Below are positions 9,094-16,775 of a stretch of DNA of 64,000 nt, piece by piece (the first letter of the stretch is position 1; every line of letters begins with the position of its first letter). Source of the DNA: Dehalococcoidia bacterium (GTDB taxonomy: Bacteria > Chloroflexota > Dehalococcoidia > Bin125). The position numbers were made by a program, and so were the translations under genes. The stretch is taken from the NCBI GenBank assembly GCA_022828105.1, contig JAJEJC010000001.1:362090-426089 (forward strand). The letters run 5' to 3'. A model generated the notes under the pieces. The model worked only from the letters and a program-made list of their open reading frames with translations, ran no database searches and was not told the origin of the DNA.

Positions 9094-11130
9094 TTATGGG
9101 CTGGCGGTGCGATCGTCGTCAGGCGAGACGAGGTCGCCGAGCGGCGCGAGTTGGCCTCGGAAGCGACCTGAGACGGGCACGTCGTCAGGTCCAGCGGGCG
9201 ACGTCGCAACCTCGGACAGCTCGACTCCACGCGCCAATGCAAGCTCGCGTTCGAGCCGAGCCTGCTCGGCGCGCCACTGGCGATGCCTGGCCAGGACCTG
9301 TTCGGCGTGTTCCTCGCCGATGTATTCCTCCAGGTAGGCCCGTTGGTCGAGCGGATCGAGTGGATCGTTGAGCCGCGCTCGGCCGTGCTCCTGCACGGCG
9401 ATCCGCTGCGCCGCCGAATAGGGGTCGATCCAGACGTCGATGTCGAGCGATGGAATCTGCGACGGCTCGACGCAGACGGTCTCGCGGCGTTGCACCCGAC
9501 CGTTCTTGCCGCGGGCGAACACCCAGATCGGCGCGCCGAACCCGCCTTCGGACAGCGGCTTGGACATCACCAGCGCCATGTTGCGCAGCATCGTGCGTAC
9601 CGCGCGGCTCTGCGCGCGCTTGAGCTGCTGCACCTGCAAGTTGCGCGATCCCAACAGCAGATTCAGCGTGTGCGGCTGCGTGTTCGGTCCAATCTCGCCT
9701 CGGTCGACCGTTCCGGCGTCCGGCGCCGCATTAAGCAGCTCCTCGTGCGACATGCGCAGGAACTCAACGAATGCCGGATCGACCCGGAACTCGACCCGAT
9801 GCAGCGACGCTCCCGCAGGCAGCGTGACCGCGGCCGCGCTGTCGGGCGTGAGCTCAATGCGACTGCCGTCGCTGTCGGTTTGCCACGACCCGTCCGCCAA
9901 TTGCACCCAGTACAACGGCGTCGCCGTCTGTTCGGCAAGGAAGCGCCCCAGCGAGCGTTCGAAGTCGTAACCGGGCTTGACCCGATAGAGACCTTCCAGC
10001 GTCGGCTCCCAGCGATGCACCATGTCCGGATGATCGTTGGTGTCGGCCTCGGCGATCGCGAACGGCGGCATCTCGTATGGATGTGGATGCGATTTGATCA
10101 GAGTCCACTCCTGACGCGGTTGCTGGTTCGAGCGGTCAGGCGACGACACGGAACGCTCCAGCGCGGCGAGCTCGTAGTATTCGTCGCGGGTCCAGACGCA
10201 GGCGATCCGCAGCCGCTCGCCCCAGCCCGCGCCCGACGGCTCCTCCGGCAGCGGCGCGTCGACCGCTTTCGCAATGCGAAGCGACGCCTCGCCGGACACG
10301 GCGCTCATCTGCAGGTCCAGCCGGTCCTGATCTCGCAGGCGGCTGCGGTATTCGAACAATCCCACTTCGCGCAGCACCACGGCCAGTCCGATGCCGTTGC
10401 CCGAACCGTGGTCCTCGACGAATGCGAACTGGTCGGGCCGAATCACTTCGATGTCCCAAGGGAATCCCGCCGCGGCCTGCCGCCGACGATCGCGATCGCG
10501 GCGGCTCTCCTCCGTCTCAATCCAAGGCAGCGAGGGACCGTCCTCGGAGCGGGCGCGGCGAAAGCGTCGGCGTTCCTCGGCATCCTCGGGGCGCGCGCCG
10601 CGTTGTTCCCGCGCGGGAAAGACCGGCATCCGCTGCTGCGCCTGTTGCCAGTGCAGGACGCCGAAGCAAAGACAGACCTGTCCGTAGCCCAGGTCGGCCT
10701 GCAACGACAGGTGCGTCCGATCCTCGACATGCCGCAAGCCTTGCTCCAGCACGTGCTCCAGGTTGTCGGCCGCCTGCCGCGCCGCCGGCGAGTCGTCGGG
10801 AGGCTCGACGTGCACGCGCAACGGATGCTCGGTGAGCCGCTGCCGCAGCTGCGACCAGGTGCGGCGCAGCAGATCCGTCTGCCACGGCTCGGCCTTCAGG
10901 TACGGAGCAGTGAACCTGGGATCGACCTGTCGCGAGTTATAGAGGTGCATCTCGCGATTGCGTATCCGTTCGTGCAGAGCCGAGAACCGGCTCAGGGCCC
11001 CGTGCGGAGCGGAGCGTCCCCCGCCGAGCTGTCCAAGTACGTGATTCAGGTCCGCTTCGCTGAGCGTTCGGGCGGCGACTCGACCGTTCTCTTCCCCGGC
11101 CGGCGCCGTCTCCATCGTCATCGTCGTCAT
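9094..11130 (-). CDS. Phage portal-like protein, isolated
   Basis: 678 residues, soluble, charged. The overall pattern resembles P22-type portal/head-to-tail connector proteins: an early segment placing a polypeptide against DNA packaging machinery (SRFSALHERIRNREM), a long mixed central region (AEPWQTDLLRRTWSQLRQRL), and a C-terminal wing typical of portals with YSAAQRIAVQEHGR, RAYLEEYIGEEHAEQV and an Arg/Glu-rich helix. No terminase, capsid or tail gene is nearby, so this is either a domesticated portal or a remnant. Codon use is like the host, favouring long residence. RBS GAGGAAGAA precedes the ATG. The portal call is moderate; an unknown chromosomal protein is the alternative. Confidence 0.5.
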   Translation of the reverse strand: MTTMTMETAPAGEENGRVAARTLSEADLNHVLGQLGGGRSAPHGALSRFSALHERIRNREMHLYNSRQVDPRFTAPYLKAEPWQTDLLRRTWSQLRQRLTEHPLRVHVEPPDDSPAARQAADNLEHVLEQGLRHVEDRTHLSLQADLGYGQVCLCFGVLHWQQAQQRMPVFPAREQRGARPEDAEERRRFRRARSEDGPSLPWIETEESRRDRDRRRQAAAGFPWDIEVIRPDQFAFVEDHGSGNGIGLAVVLREVGLFEYRSRLRDQDRLDLQMSAVSGEASLRIAKAVDAPLPEEPSGAGWGERLRIACVWTRDEYYELAALERSVSSPDRSNQQPRQEWTLIKSHPHPYEMPPFAIAEADTNDHPDMVHRWEPTLEGLYRVKPGYDFERSLGRFLAEQTATPLYWVQLADGSWQTDSDGSRIELTPDSAAAVTLPAGASLHRVEFRVDPAFVEFLRMSHEELLNAAPDAGTVDRGEIGPNTQPHTLNLLLGSRNLQVQQLKRAQSRAVRTMLRNMALVMSKPLSEGGFGAPIWVFARGKNGRVQRRETVCVEPSQIPSLDIDVWIDPYSAAQRIAVQEHGRARLNDPLDPLDQRAYLEEYIGEEHAEQVLARHRQWRAEQARLERELALARGVELSEVATSPAGPDDVPVSGRFRGQLAPLGDLVSPDDDRTASP

Positions 11131-11442: not shown

Positions 11443-13107
11443 ATGACCACTGAACTCGACTCCGTTCCCGCAATCTCCGACTGGTACGTGGAGGCGCTCG
11501 CGGCGGCGAGTCCGAATCTGGCCACGTCCCTCGGCATCCCCGGCCGCGAGACCGAACTGACCGACTACTCGCCCGACGGACACGAGGAGCGTTCGTCAAT
11601 CCGCCGCCAAGCCGAGGCGGCCCTGCGGCGGCTCAACGTCGAGACCGAGCGCGACCGCGTCGCCCGCGACGTGATGCTGGAGCGCCTCGCCTATGAGGCC
11701 GAGCTGGAGTCGCAGCAGGAGCACCTGCGCTCGCTCAACATCCTCGCCTCGCCGCTGCAGAACACGCGCCAGGTCTTCGACCTGATGCCCCGCGAGACCG
11801 AGCAGGACCAGGCCCGCCTCGTCGAGCGCATGGGCGCGGTGCCCGAGGCGCTGGAGCAGTACCGCGCTTCGCTGGCGGCCGGCATGGATCAGGGCATCGT
11901 CGTCGCCCAGCGCCAGGTCCGCGGCGGCATCGAGCAATGCCGCGTCTGGTCAGGCGCCGGCGGGAGCTCATCCTTCTTCCAACAGCTCTGCGACTCGCTC
12001 GGCATTGACGGCGGCGATCACGCGACCGCCGCCGAACGGGGCTACGCCGCGATGGCCGACTGGCTGGAGCGGGAGTATCTGCCCCGGGCCAACCCTCGCG
12101 ACCCGGTCGGCCGCGACCGCTACCAGGCCGCTTCACGGGGATTCAACGGGATCGAGTTGGACCTCGACGAGACCTATCAATGGGGCTGGGAGGAGGTCTG
12201 GCGCATCCAGTCCGAGATGGCCGAGACCGCCGAGCGCATCTCGCCCGGAGCGACCGTCGCCGAGGCGATCGCCATTCTCGAGGCCGACGACGACCGCGCG
12301 ATCGAGGGCGAGGACGCCTTCCGCGACTGGATGCAGCAGACCCAGGACGAGACGATGCAGGCGCTGCTCGGCACGCACTTCGATATCGCCGACCCCGTCC
12401 AGCGGATCGAGGCGATGATCGCGCCGCCCGGCGGCGCGCTGGCGATGTACTACACGGGACCCTCCGAGGACTTCTCGCGTCCCGGCCGGACCTGGTATCC
12501 GACGGGCGGCGCGACCCGATTCCCGCTCTGGCGCGAGCTCTCCGTCTGCTATCACGAGGGCGTGCCCGGACACCACCTGCAGATCGGCACGACCCGCTAC
12601 CTCGGCGAGCAGCTCACCCGATATCAGCGACTGCTCGCCGGGACCTCCGGCTACGTCGAGGGCTGGGCGCTCTACGCCGAGCGGCTGATGGCTGAACTCG
12701 GCTACCTCGAAGATCCCGCCTACTACATGGGGCTGCTCAGCAGCCAGGCGCTGCGAGCCGTGCGCGTCGTGATCGATATCGGCATGCACCTGGAGCTGCC
12801 GATTCCCGAGCGCGAGCCCTACCACGGCGGCGAGACCTGGACGCCCGAGCTCGCCCTGCCCTTCCTGATCGAGCGCTCGTTCTTCCCCGAGCAGATGCTC
12901 GCCAGCGAGGTCGACCGCTACCTCGGCTGGCCCGGACAGGCGATCTCCTACAAGGTCGGCGAGCGTGAATGGCTCGCCGCCCGCGAGGCCGCCCGCGACT
13001 CCCTCGGCGACGCCTTCGATCTGAAGAGCTTCCACAAGGCCGCCCTCGACCTCGGCCCCATGGGCCTCCAACAACTCCGCGACGAAATGTCCCGACTGCG
13101 CGGCTAA
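11443..13107 (+). CDS. DUF885 zinc metallopeptidase-like protein
   Basis: 554 residues of the DUF885 family, which contains a gluzincin-like catalytic core. The signature is CYHEGVPGHHLQIGT with H371-E372 and H377/H378, and the downstream Glu is in GYVEGWALYAE (E406). Other family landmarks are FPLWRELSV and ISYKVGEREW. No signal peptide is present, so it is cytoplasmic, probably an oligopeptidase or aminoacyl hydrolase. The ATG has a weak GGGATG-type site; the upstream TACACT would give a leader of about 45 bases. A composite repeat begins four bases behind the stop. Confidence 0.85.
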   Translation: MTTELDSVPAISDWYVEALAAASPNLATSLGIPGRETELTDYSPDGHEERSSIRRQAEAALRRLNVETERDRVARDVMLERLAYEAELESQQEHLRSLNILASPLQNTRQVFDLMPRETEQDQARLVERMGAVPEALEQYRASLAAGMDQGIVVAQRQVRGGIEQCRVWSGAGGSSSFFQQLCDSLGIDGGDHATAAERGYAAMADWLEREYLPRANPRDPVGRDRYQAASRGFNGIELDLDETYQWGWEEVWRIQSEMAETAERISPGATVAEAIAILEADDDRAIEGEDAFRDWMQQTQDETMQALLGTHFDIADPVQRIEAMIAPPGGALAMYYTGPSEDFSRPGRTWYPTGGATRFPLWRELSVCYHEGVPGHHLQIGTTRYLGEQLTRYQRLLAGTSGYVEGWALYAERLMAELGYLEDPAYYMGLLSSQALRAVRVVIDIGMHLELPIPEREPYHGGETWTPELALPFLIERSFFPEQMLASEVDRYLGWPGQAISYKVGEREWLAAREAARDSLGDAFDLKSFHKAALDLGPMGLQQLRDEMSRLRG

Positions 13108-13110
13108 AGT

Positions 13111-13318
13111 CATCTCCCCCTGCTCGCGCGGGGGGAGATGCCGTAAGGCGCACTTCCCTTCTCCCCCCGCTCGCGCGGGGGGAGGGCGCACTTCCCTTCT
13201 CCCCCCGCCTGATGGCGGGGGGAGATGCCGAAGGCAGAGGGGGGGGCGTTCGCACGACGAGGGGAGTGCCCCCCTCTGTCCCTTCGGGACATCTCCCCCC
13301 GCTGGCGCGGGGGGAGAG
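13111..13318. repeat. GC-rich composite palindromic repeat, about 1.5 units
   Basis: Three CTCCCCCCGC/GCGGGGGGAG hairpins with loops GCTCGC, CTGATG and TGGC, plus the short stems TGCC/GGCA and TGTCCC/GGGACA (loop TTC) in reverse orientation relative to the array at 15.8 kb. It fills the gap between the DUF885 stop and the promoter of the first selenoprotein gene. The stems are conserved while loops vary. Confidence 0.85.
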
Positions 13319-13331
13319 AGCGCGCGCGCGA

Positions 13332-13337
13332 TACGCT
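13332..13337 (+). promoter_or_regulatory. -10-like TACGCT of the first Sec-DsbA gene
   Basis: TACGCT ends six bases before the ATG at 13344. The next selenoprotein gene has the identical hexamer at the identical distance. No Shine-Dalgarno is present, so leaderless translation is likely. Confidence 0.5.
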
Positions 13338-13343
13338 GGCCTC

Positions 13344-14090
13344 ATGCGACTGCTGACCGCCGCGCTCGTGCTGCTGGCCGCCCTGGCGGTTGCCTGCGGG
13401 GCCGGCGACGACTCGCCGCCGCCGACCGCGACGCAGACCTCCCAGCGCGCCGAGCGCGAGGCGACCGTCGTTCAGCAGCAGACCCAGGCGCAGCCGCAGA
13501 CCGAGGCGCAGCCCGAGATCCAGGACGACGCCCAGACCGACGCGCTGCCCGCCGACGCCGTCGGCGAGCACAAGGGGCTGCGCAGCCAACGCAACCTGCT
13601 CGGCGAGCCCGATGCGCCCGTGTTGATCGAGTACTACGGCGACTTCACTTGACCGTTCTGCCAGCAATTCTCGGTTCAGGTTGAGCCGCACATCCTCGAG
13701 CAGTTCGTCGCCACCGGCATCGCCCGCTACGAGTTCCGCCACATGCCCGTGCTCGGCGAGAACGCCGTCTTCGCGGCCGTCGTCGTCGAGTGCGCCGCCG
13801 AGCAGGGCGCGTTCTGGCCCTTCCACGACCGCTTCATGGCCGGCGACGAGACGCTCTTCACCGAGCGCGGCCTCAACCGACAGGCCACGTTCGAGGGACT
13901 CGACGTCGACCGCTTCTGGGCCTGCATCGAGAACGGCGAGACCTTCCCCATCGTCAGCGCCTCCTACGAGGAAGGCGGCCAGCGAGGCGTCCAGTCCACG
14001 CCCACCGTCTTCGTCAACGACCAGCAAATCGACCCCACCCTCGAAGCCATCCAGTCCGCCGTCGAATCCGCCCTGGACACCACGCCCTAG
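13344..14090 (+). CDS. DsbA-like selenoprotein lipoprotein 1 (U-x-x-C)
   Basis: Read through the in-frame TGA at 13650-13652, this is a 248-residue protein with Sec103 and Cys106 (U-P-F-C). It begins with a hydrophobic signal ending LAVAC (lipobox-like), continues with a Gln/Ala/Glu-rich linker, then the thioredoxin fold: PVLIEYYGDFT before Sec, a helical insert with RYEFRHMPVLG and FWPFHDRFM, and the cis-Pro loop STPTVFVN. Without the read-through both halves would be orphan fragments, each lacking half of the active site. A perfect hairpin 20 bases after TGA fits a bacterial SECIS. It would be an extracytoplasmic, membrane-tethered thiol or selenol oxidoreductase. It heads a series of three paralogues. 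Confidence 0.85.
13672..13688 (+). promoter_or_regulatory. SECIS hairpin of Sec-DsbA 1
   Basis: Seven-base-pair stem CGGTTCA / TGAGCCG around the loop GGT. The loop begins 27 bases after the TGA, exactly as in the two paralogues. One pair is a U-G wobble where the others have C-G, so pairing is kept despite sequence change. Confidence 0.75.
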
Positions 14091-14104
14091 CGGGCTACCG
14101 AACA

Positions 14105-14150
14105 CTCTCCCCCCGCTCTGCGGGGGGAGATGCCGAAGGCAGAGGGGGGC
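14105..14150. repeat. Half unit of the GC-rich composite repeat
   Basis: One CTCTCCCCCCGC/GCGGGGGGAGA hairpin (loop TCT) plus TGCC-GAA-GGCA and the AGAGGGGGGC arm, placed between the first and second selenoprotein genes, just before the second gene's promoter. Confidence 0.8.
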
Positions 14151-14172
14151 CGCTCCCTCCCCTCCGCTGGGG

Positions 14173-14178
14173 TACGCT
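14173..14178 (+). promoter_or_regulatory. -10-like TACGCT of the second Sec-DsbA gene
   Basis: TACGCT followed by exactly six bases and the ATG at 14185, identical in sequence and spacing to the element before the first selenoprotein gene. It indicates a separate leaderless transcript start inside the cluster. Confidence 0.5.
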
Positions 14179-14184
14179 CGACTC

Positions 14185-14919
14185 ATGACCTCCCTGACCC
14201 GCTGGATCCTCCCGCTGATGATTGGCGCGCTGATCGCCGCCTGCGGATCCGGCGGCGCGCCGGACTCCTCCGAGACCGGCACCGTGCGCAGCGAGCGGGA
14301 CGCCCGCGACGCCTCGATCATGCAGCAAGAGCGCCAGATCGCGGCTTCGGCAGCCGGCGTCATCGACTTCGGACACCGCGAGGGACTGCCCTTCACCCGC
14401 AACGTCGTCGGCGACCCCGACGCGCCCGTCCTGATCGTCGAGTACTCCGACTTCCAGTGACCGAGCTGCCGCACGTTTGCGGCTCAGGCTGAGCCGCTGA
14501 TTATCGAGGAAGCCATCCGCACCGGACTCGCCCGCTACGAGTACCGTCACTTCATCATCTTCGGCGCCGCCTCGCAGTTCGCCGCGATGGCTACCGAGTG
14601 CGCCGGCGACCAGGGCGCGTGGTGGCAGTTCCACGACGCCTACCTGCTCGACGCCCGCGCGCGCAGCTTCACCCGCGCCGGCGCCCTCGACCTCGCCCGC
14701 CAGCACCAGCTCGACGTCGCCCGCTTCAGCCAGTGCCTCGAAGACGAGGAGCACGCCGACCGCATCCTGCAGATGCAGCAGCTCGGCATCGCCGAGGGCG
14801 TCAACGGCACGCCCACCTTCCGCATCAACGGACGACCCGGCGGACGCTCCGTCAACGCCATGCTCGACCAGGTCCGCGCCGCCGCCGAGGCCGCCAACAC
14901 CGAGGAGGACGGATCATGA
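14185..14919 (+). CDS. DsbA-like selenoprotein lipoprotein 2 (U-x-x-C)
   Basis: 244 residues when the TGA at 14458-14460 is read as Sec92, followed by P-S-C (Cys95). The signal peptide ends in the lipobox LIAAC, followed by a short linker. The thioredoxin landmarks are PVLIVEYSDFQ before Sec, EYRHFIIFG, ATECAGDQGAWWQFHD and the cis-Pro loop NGTPTFRIN. The two frames joined by TGA are collinear with the paralogues on both sides. A perfect 8-bp hairpin follows at the fixed distance. Its stop overlaps the start of the third gene (ATGA), so those two are translationally coupled. The product should sit on the outer face of the membrane. Confidence 0.87.
14479..14497 (+). promoter_or_regulatory. 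SECIS hairpin of Sec-DsbA 2
   Basis: Perfect 8-bp stem GCGGCTCA / TGAGCCGC with loop GGC. The loop starts 27 bases after the TGA, the same position as in genes 1 and 3. Confidence 0.8.
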
Positions 14920-15761
14920 TCCGCAGACTCACCGCAGCCGCATCGCTCCTTGCCGCAACGGCGCTGCTCCTTGCCGCCTGCGGCTCCGACGAACCGCAAC
15001 CCGCCGACGATCCGCAGCCGGCCGCCTACCAGGCCGGACAGAGCGAGTCGCGGCAGGCGCAGGCACAACCAGAAGCCGAGGCCGAGCAAGCAGAGCCCGA
15101 GCGGGTCCCTGAGCAAGTCAGGGACAGGGATGATGAAGCTTCGCAAGCGGAGACCGAGCCGGTTGAGCAAGTCAGCGACGCGGAGGTTGAGCAGGAAGCG
15201 ATGGTCGGCAGGATCATCGAGTCCGGGCATCGCGCCGGGCTCTTTGCCGACCGCAACTCGCTCGGCGCGCCCGACGCGCCGATCGTGATTACGGAGTACT
15301 CCGACTTCCTTTGAGGCAACTGCCGCCGATTCGCGGCTCAGGTTGAGCCGCGCCTGGTTGACGAACTCGTTCGCACCGGACTCGTCCGCTTCGAGTACTC
15401 GCACATTCTCAATCACGGCCCGCCCTCCGTCGCCGCCGCCCTCGCCACCGAGTGCGCCGGCGACCAGGGCCGATGGTGGGACTTCCACGACCACTACATG
15501 ACCACCCAGGACTTCTCACGAGACGGAGCGCTCGCTCTCGCCGCCCGCCACAACCTCGACCCCGACCAGTTCGCCCAATGCTTCGACAGCCAAACCCACC
15601 TCGACCGGGTCGAGTCGCAACACCGCACCGCCGCCCAGAACGGAATCACCAGAACCCCCACCGTCCACCTCAACGGCCAGGGAGCCGCCACCATCGGAGA
15701 CGCCCTGATCGAGCAAGTGCGAGCCCTCGCCGATGAGCTGGGCATCGATCTGAGCAACTAG
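14916..15761 (+). CDS. DsbA-like selenoprotein lipoprotein 3 (U-x-x-C)
   Basis: 281 residues with Sec133 (TGA at 15312-15314) and Cys136 in U-G-N-C. The signal peptide ends in a good lipobox (LLAAC). A long Gln/Glu/Ala-rich linker of about 60 residues follows, the longest of the three, which would hold the redox domain away from the membrane. Thioredoxin features are IVITEYSDFL, EYSHILNHG, CAGDQGRWWDFHDHYM and the cis-Pro loop TRTPTVHLN. Its ATG overlaps the stop of gene 2. A 9-bp perfect hairpin follows at the fixed distance. A large repeat array begins a dozen bases after the stop. Sec in this position should give a low-pKa, fast-reacting nucleophile. Confidence 0.87.
15332..15352 (+). promoter_or_regulatory. 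SECIS hairpin of Sec-DsbA 3
   Basis: Perfect 9-bp stem with arms CGCGGCTCA and TGAGCCGCG around the loop GGT. The loop begins 27 bases after the TGA. This is the longest and most stable of the three. Confidence 0.82.
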
Positions 15762-15772
15762 CCGGCCCAGTC

Positions 15773-16401
15773 CCCTCTCCCCCCGCTAGCGCGGGGGTAT
15801 ATGTCCCTTTGTGACAGTGGGGGGCACTCCCCTCGTAACGCGCACGGAGCCCCCCTCTGCCTAACGGCATCTCCCCCCGCCTGACGGCGGGGGGAGAAGG
15901 GATGTGGGTGCGCCATCTCGCCTTCTCCCTCTCCCCCCGCTAGCGCGGGGGGAGATGTCACGTAGTGACAGAGGGGGGCACTCCCCTCGTACCGCGCACG
16001 GAGCCCCCCTCTGCCTGACGGCATCTCCCCCCGCCTGACGGCGGGGGGAGAAGGGAAGTGGGTGCGGCGGGCGTTCTCCCCTCTCCCCCCGCGCAAGCGG
16101 GGGGAGATGTCACGTTGTGACAGAGGGGGGCACTCCCCTCGTACCGCGCACGGAGCCCCCCTCTGCCTGACGGCATCTCCCCCCGCCTTGCGGCGGGGGG
16201 AGAGGGGAAGTGGGTGCGGCGGGCGTTCTCCCCTCTCCCCCCTCCAGGGGGGAGATGTCACGTAGTGACAGAGGGGGGCACGCCCCTCGTACCGCGCACG
16301 GAGCCCCCCTCTGCCTTCGGCATCTCCCCCCGCCTGACGGCGGGGGGAGAAGGGAAGTGTGTGCGGCATCTCCCCCCGCCTAGCGGCGGGGGGGAGAGGG
16401 G
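15773..16401. repeat. Tandem array of four composite palindromic repeat units
   Basis: Four units of about 150 bases in direct repeat. Each unit contains, in order, a CTCCCCCCGC hairpin, a TGTCAC/GTGACA stem with loop GTA (or GTT), a long stem GAGGGGGGC/GCCCCCCTC enclosing about 20 variable bases, a TGCC/GGCA stem and a second CTCCCCCCGCC hairpin. The units end with a GTGGGTGCG-type spacer. The first unit is partly degraded (TATATGTCCCTTTGTGACA). Apparent reading frames inside are by-products of the repeats, not genes. Confidence 0.9.
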
Positions 16402-16421: not shown

Positions 16422-16775
16422 ATGGCACGTACCCCTCGACGCCTGGTCGGATTCTCTCGCGAGATGCGGCGCAATCCGACCGAGGCCGAGCGGGTGCTCT
16501 GGCCCTACCTCCGCAACCGACGCCTCAACGGCTACCGCTTCCGACGACAACACACCGTCGGCCAGTACATCGTCGACTTCGCCTGCCTCGACCCCAAGCT
16601 CGCCATTGAACTCGACGGCTCCCAACACCTCGAACACCCACAACGAGACCACCGCCGAGACGCCGACCTCGCAGCAAGTGGCTTCAAGACCCTCCACTTC
16701 ACCAACCACGAAGTCCTCAGCGACACCCAAACAGTCCTCGAAGTCATCCTCCGAGAGCTGGAAGCCCTCCGTTAA
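16422..16775 (+). CDS. DUF559 (Vsr-like) nuclease-fold protein
   Basis: 117 residues of the DUF559 family, which shares the very-short-patch-repair/PD-(D/E)XK endonuclease fold. Visible motifs are ERVLWPYLRNRRLNGYRFRRQ, IVDFACLDPKLAIELDG (D...E-x-D core), a following SQHLEHPQRDHRRD and the strand FKTLHFTNHEV. The gene lies between two arrays of the same repeat: it starts about 20 bases after one array and its stop codon is followed directly by the next. That is the layout expected of a nuclease carried with, or acting on, the repeats. Function in this family is unproven. Codon use matches neighbours. Confidence 0.85.
   Translation: MARTPRRLVGFSREMRRNPTEAERVLWPYLRNRRLNGYRFRRQHTVGQYIVDFACLDPKLAIELDGSQHLEHPQRDHRRDADLAASGFKTLHFTNHEVLSDTQTVLEVILRELEALR

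Follow-up and report, generated by a model that had tools for sequence, protein, structure and literature searches.

The array and its surroundings

The window analysed here is a 64,000-nucleotide stretch from the genome of a Dehalococcoidia bacterium (2.74 Mb, 97% complete) and contains three adjacent genes, named A, B and C in this study, each with an in-frame TGA codon. When TGA is translated as U, gene A (13344..14090, + strand) encodes a putative selenocysteine (Sec) lipoprotein of 248 aa with the motif U103-P-F-C and the cis-Pro loop STPT, gene B (14185..14919, + strand) one of 244 aa with U92-P-S-C and GTPT, and gene C (14916..15761, + strand) one of 281 aa with U133-G-N-C and RTPT. The predicted Sec codons (13650..13652, 14458..14460 and 15312..15314, all + strand) occupy the first position of the CxxC motif, and the frame remains open beyond them for 145 (A), 152 (B) and 148 aa (C). 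An earlier note on this DNA had placed TGA codons at these points of the motif, followed by x-x-Cys and by a continuous thioredoxin frame with its cis-Pro loop, and both observations were borne out. Its expectation that conventional annotation would truncate the genes was also correct: standard ORF calling splits all three genes at their TGAs.

The three proteins share a layout of putative signal peptide, lipobox-like cysteine, Q/E-rich linker and a single Thioredoxin_4 domain, which runs across the TGA and scores 100.9 (A), 96.4 (B) and 84.9 bits (C) against a Pfam cut-off of 23.2. Our fold test combined the PF13462 / PF01323 gathering cut-off with the presence of U/CxxC and a cis-Pro, and A, B and C have all of these. 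Lipobox candidates, assigned by pattern only, are IAAC and LAAC in B and C and the loose AVAC in A; the Q-rich linkers of the earlier description are present, and its putative lipoprotein signals fit the pattern in B and C and less closely in A.

The terminal stop codon of gene B is itself TGA (14917-14919) and lies within an ATGA overlap with the start of gene C, so that TGA would act as both sense and stop inside a single gene. Together with a Shine-Dalgarno-like GAGGAGGA (14902..14909, + strand), this overlap agrees with the suggestion that the second and third genes are translationally coupled. Genes A and B each have a -10-like TACGCT (13332..13337 and 14173..14178, + strand) 12 nt 5' of the ATG, which would constitute a leaderless promoter. 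These promoters had been described as identical; the TACGCT is indeed shared, but the upstream elements of A and B match at only 11 of 14 bases. Most A and B orthologs carry TANNNT at 12 nt (once 13 nt) 5' of the ATG, a placement found for 1.6% of random ATGs in the window and one that fits leaderless A and B transcripts. Many orthologs of C, and of a fourth gene (D) present in relatives, also have GGAGG-type stretches upstream.

Conserved neighbours of the array comprise a DUF885 protein, a RecF-like protein and one of 680 aa that has no Pfam match. In the window, the DUF885 gene (11443-13107) lies directly upstream of the array, an adjacency kept in related loci, and a 678-aa protein without a Pfam match is encoded at 9094-11130 (- strand). 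In many relatives the opposite flank of the array carries a protein of similar size, also without a Pfam match, which may reflect local rearrangement. We know of no link between DUF885 and selenium, and the neighbours were rejected as a guide to function as none of the three points to a redox pathway. Dispersed intergenic C-/G-rich inverted repeats (CTCCCCCCGC ... GCGGGGGGAG), with 56 core copies over the 64 kb of the window, border the array (for example at 13110-13320 and 15770-16400) as well as many other genes. Between repeat clusters at 16427-16775 there is a small frame that, judged by eye, resembles a DUF559-type endonuclease.

Conservation and predicted decoding of the in-frame TGA

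A scan of named genomes yielded 66 loci. In the array copies (the window plus L051-L062) the column that aligns with the predicted Sec codon is TGA in 43 of 43 cases, including all orthologs of gene A, whereas 45 more distant homologues have TGC or TGT there, the cysteine alignment that the earlier note had proposed as a check. Sec forms outside the array were also identified (L070, L087, L089, L096, L099, L107 and L110). Of 20 genomes of the taxonomic family, 18 gave a match, G017 and G018 only weak partial ones without TGA, and TGA copies are present in 14 of the 15 genomes of the genus. Only in G011 were they not found, and its assembly is a draft of 89% completeness split into 470 contigs. 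In most of the 14 genomes three or four genes stand in tandem, and most also have one further copy elsewhere. The three-gene cassette originally described is accurate for this window, but several relatives have four genes and this genome also carries an unlinked Sec paralog (L117, around 5849; motif UPEC), which forms a long branch. All four Thioredoxin_4 genes found in the host genome contain a TGA. TGA copies resembling the L117 paralog sit apart from the array in other members of the genus as well.

Groups A (14 rows), B, C and D separate in the tree with SH-aLRT values of 99, 99, 97 and 100, respectively, indicating that the duplications predate the spread of the genus. Sec and Cys forms of DsbA-like proteins often replace each other; no Sec-to-Cys change was seen among the A-D ortholog groups of the tree. 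From the TGA to the stop codon the array copies measure 142-154 aa, and 12 ortholog pairs gave dN/dS values of 0.03-0.36 for this part: the frame beyond the TGA is under purifying selection. Retention of Sec by three to four paralogs through the divergence of a genus offers a natural test of the benefit of Sec in a surface thiol enzyme.

Each TGA is followed by a candidate SECIS hairpin, for which the consensus is GCGGCTCA-GGY-TGAGCCGC. This structure starts 18-19 nt past the TGA, with the apical loop beginning after 26 nt, and has an 8-bp stem and a loop of GGU, GGC or GTT. Gene C has the most stable version (15333..15351, + strand; GCGGCTCA-GGT-TGAGCCGC; 8 pairs, or 9 with a flanking C-G; -15.6 kcal/mol), followed by gene B (14479..14497, + strand; GCGGCTCA-GGC-TGAGCCGC; 8 pairs; -13.2 kcal/mol). 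The gene A hairpin (13671..13689, + strand; TCGGTTCAGGTTGAGCCGC; loop GGU) is the weakest of the three, with 7 pairs including one G-U, and the gene D copies have one internal mismatch. Published bSECIS limits are a loop of 3-9 nt with G in the first two positions, a stem of 4-16 bp and a position 16-37 nt after the UGA (PMC13188914). Taken alone these limits are unspecific, as about 12% of TGAs pass in this GC-rich window. A strict, gap-free version of them with energy <= -7.5 was passed by 38 of 59 Sec copies and 1 of 45 Cys homologues, compared with a rate of 11.9% over every TGA of the window; gene A fails this gap-free model, although its 48-nt fold reaches -7.9. The array thus has the SECIS element expected of bacterial selenoproteins, with gene A marginal on energy. 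No Rfam family matched anywhere in the window.

Covariation provides further evidence for the hairpin. Over 52 distinct sequences, 94.7% of cells pair, compared with 29-39% when the structure is slid along the alignment, and in three pairs both partners have changed. None of 500 shuffles attained the covariation score; since these shuffles ignore relatedness, the individual compensatory changes weigh more. Such changes include G-C to A-T in gene A of L059 and L060, A-T to G-C in gene B of L052, L057 and L062, T-A to G-C in gene C of L059 and L060, where E becomes A (QVEP to QSAP), and T-A to C-G in gene D, where E becomes G (ATQVG; QVEP to QVGP). Two of these stem changes therefore alter the protein, and this joint change of protein and hairpin illustrates the coding cost of Sec. 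The SECIS element that the earlier note had expected after each TGA is accordingly present, if weak in gene A.

These data bear on whether the genes are simply broken. In principle, TGC or TGT codons could have mutated to TGA, or been misread in sequencing, to leave truncated pseudogenes; standard ORF calling, which cuts the genes at their TGAs, gives the result expected in that case. However, the codon is TGA in all 43 copies, which come from many genomes that were assembled separately, the frame past it is open and selected as described above, and the hairpin covaries. The probability of this explanation is negligible, and it was ruled out by conservation.

The host genome encodes the machinery for Sec synthesis and insertion. 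Specifically, we found SelB, SelA (526 bits), SelD (353 bits; L171 3349-4629) and a tRNA-Sec with anticodon TCA (70.3 bits; also called as tRNA-Sec by ARAGORN), which is the full set that had been proposed as a genomic check. SelD commonly carries an in-frame TGA, and the host SelD has one within the stretch CGGUGSK and is therefore probably a selenoprotein too. An open frame with an internal TGA would also arise if TGA were a sense codon for Trp, Cys or another residue and selenium were not involved. Against this, TGA is a real stop in 23 of 43 array genes, gene B included, its column aligns with Cys only, and the complete Sec machinery is present. The Trp code raised in the earlier note is thus not in use here; we give a reassigned TGA next to no credence, and it was ruled out by the TGA stops of the same genes.

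Based on the column, the machinery, the hairpin, the selection on the frame and the stop usage, all of which favour Sec, we predict with high confidence that genes A-C are decoded with Sec and encode proteins of the DsbA type. Each check from the earlier note that sequence data allowed favoured its Sec reading, and no outcome that it had named as refuting was observed. The UGA at the first CxxC position would be decoded by SelB and tRNA-Sec, directed by the 8-bp SECIS hairpin with its GGU-type loop 18-19 nt downstream. The array probably represents old duplications that became fixed, in which A and B would be transcribed from their own leaderless promoters and gene C (and gene D in relatives) would be translated by coupling to B.

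Known relatives and comparison systems

The only NCBIfam match of A, B and C is NF041057 (Rcas_1661 family thioredoxin-like (seleno)lipoprotein). Their scores of 122.1, 128.2 and 157.5 bits fall below the curated cut-off of 190, so they are relatives and not formal members of that family. The resemblance extends to the putative lipoprotein character, the thioredoxin fold with UxxC or CxxC and the mixture of Sec and Cys forms in Chloroflexota. At an E-value of 1e-20 the model matches proteins with and without TGA in 180 of 400 sampled Chloroflexota genomes. Among the matches listed, members above the cut-off occur singly or in pairs, the tandem Sec pairs of this sample being in G264 and G299, whereas the array consists of three to four tandem paralogs throughout a genus. 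A 2026 review lists NF041057 as a selenoprotein family under the name 'DsbG-like protein' (PMC13188914); Rcas_1661 was not found by name in the open-licence papers searched.

DsbA-like selenoproteins of the UxxC type are described in the Sargasso Sea and GOS surveys (PMC1088965, PMC2398784) and likewise carry Sec in place of the first cysteine of the DsbA CxxC motif. An earlier count puts the DsbA-like Sec genes at 45 in 41 organisms, or about one each (PMC5029168). The array differs from these in copy number, as surveyed genomes had about one gene each, and the passages searched mention no tandem arrays. The SAO and Tso operons also place several Sec genes side by side, but they combine mixed families in one pathway (PMC13188914), while the array is made up of paralogs of one family. 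As this kind of protein is already listed as a selenoprotein family, only the conserved tandem array of paralogs looks new. In the open-licence papers searched we came across no description of tandemly arrayed Sec paralogs of the Rcas_1661 type, in keeping with the earlier remark that such a cassette is unusual, and a conserved tandem family of such Sec genes appears to be undescribed.

Predicted fold, redox role and hosts

An AlphaFold2 model of the gene B protein (pLDDT 86.9) has its best PDB matches with TsdA of Corynebacterium diphtheriae (7unn) and BdbD of Bacillus subtilis (3eu3), and other DsbA proteins are matched too. The model shares its fold with BdbD and TsdA (Foldseek E-values of 1e-10 and 2e-11), but these are CxxC proteins without selenium and have sequence identities of 23-26%. 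The array proteins would accordingly be lipid-anchored thiol-disulfide oxidoreductases with the DsbA/BdbD/TsdA fold, exported to the outside of the membrane. There the Sec selenolate is predicted to attack disulfides or other oxidised substrates, and the resolving Cys would free the product.

The dipeptide between Sec and Cys tunes redox potential. In the array this dipeptide differs among groups (PF, GG or GI in A; PS or PH in B; GN, PN or SN in C; GG in D), and such variation suggests a set of paralogs with graded reactivity.

The direction in which these enzymes act can be considered in terms of their partners. Several DsbA proteins are oxidases, and since BdbD, TsdA and other DsbA proteins are the nearest relatives in both fold and sequence, the array proteins might likewise put disulfides into exported proteins. 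However, DsbB was not found in the host genome and VKOR was not found in the 20 genomes of the family, so no quinone-linked partner of the kind that marks a DsbA-type oxidase was identified, and oxidase action is unsupported. Furthermore, low-potential selenolate chemistry favours reduction or isomerisation. We consider an oxidase role rather unlikely, although remote oxidases could escape the DsbB and VKOR searches. Of the earlier designation as DsbA-like, the fold holds, but the oxidase action that the name suggests is unsupported.

A CcdA-type protein, in contrast to DsbB, is encoded once in the host genome. With DsbB and VKOR not found and CcdA present, a reductase or isomerase role is favoured, and we see about an even chance that the array proteins act in this way and are regenerated by reduction through CcdA, although CcdA may serve another partner instead. 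A broader proposal, which we advance more tentatively, is that the whole Thioredoxin_4-type extracytoplasmic thiol-disulfide system of this genus of sponge-associated Dehalococcoidia depends on Sec, with four to five graded paralogs acting as surface reductases with no Cys backup and without DsbB or VKOR.

Alternatively, the proteins might act at the cell surface on metals, metalloids or peroxides and not on protein disulfides, as has been proposed for the multi-selenoprotein SAO and Tso operons. Such operons comprise three to six selenoprotein genes (PMC13188914), and the export signals and Q/E-rich linkers of the paralogs would suit such a role. This appears improbable, since no transporter, methyltransferase or metal gene is conserved beside the array.

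Routine gene calling would probably split all the array genes, so that part of the surface biology of an abundant group of sponge symbionts would go unnoticed. Caribbean Ircinia sponges are the source of several of the genomes with the array (jk18x bins; PMC9531527), and selA and selB have been reported as enriched in sponge symbionts (PMC5649159).
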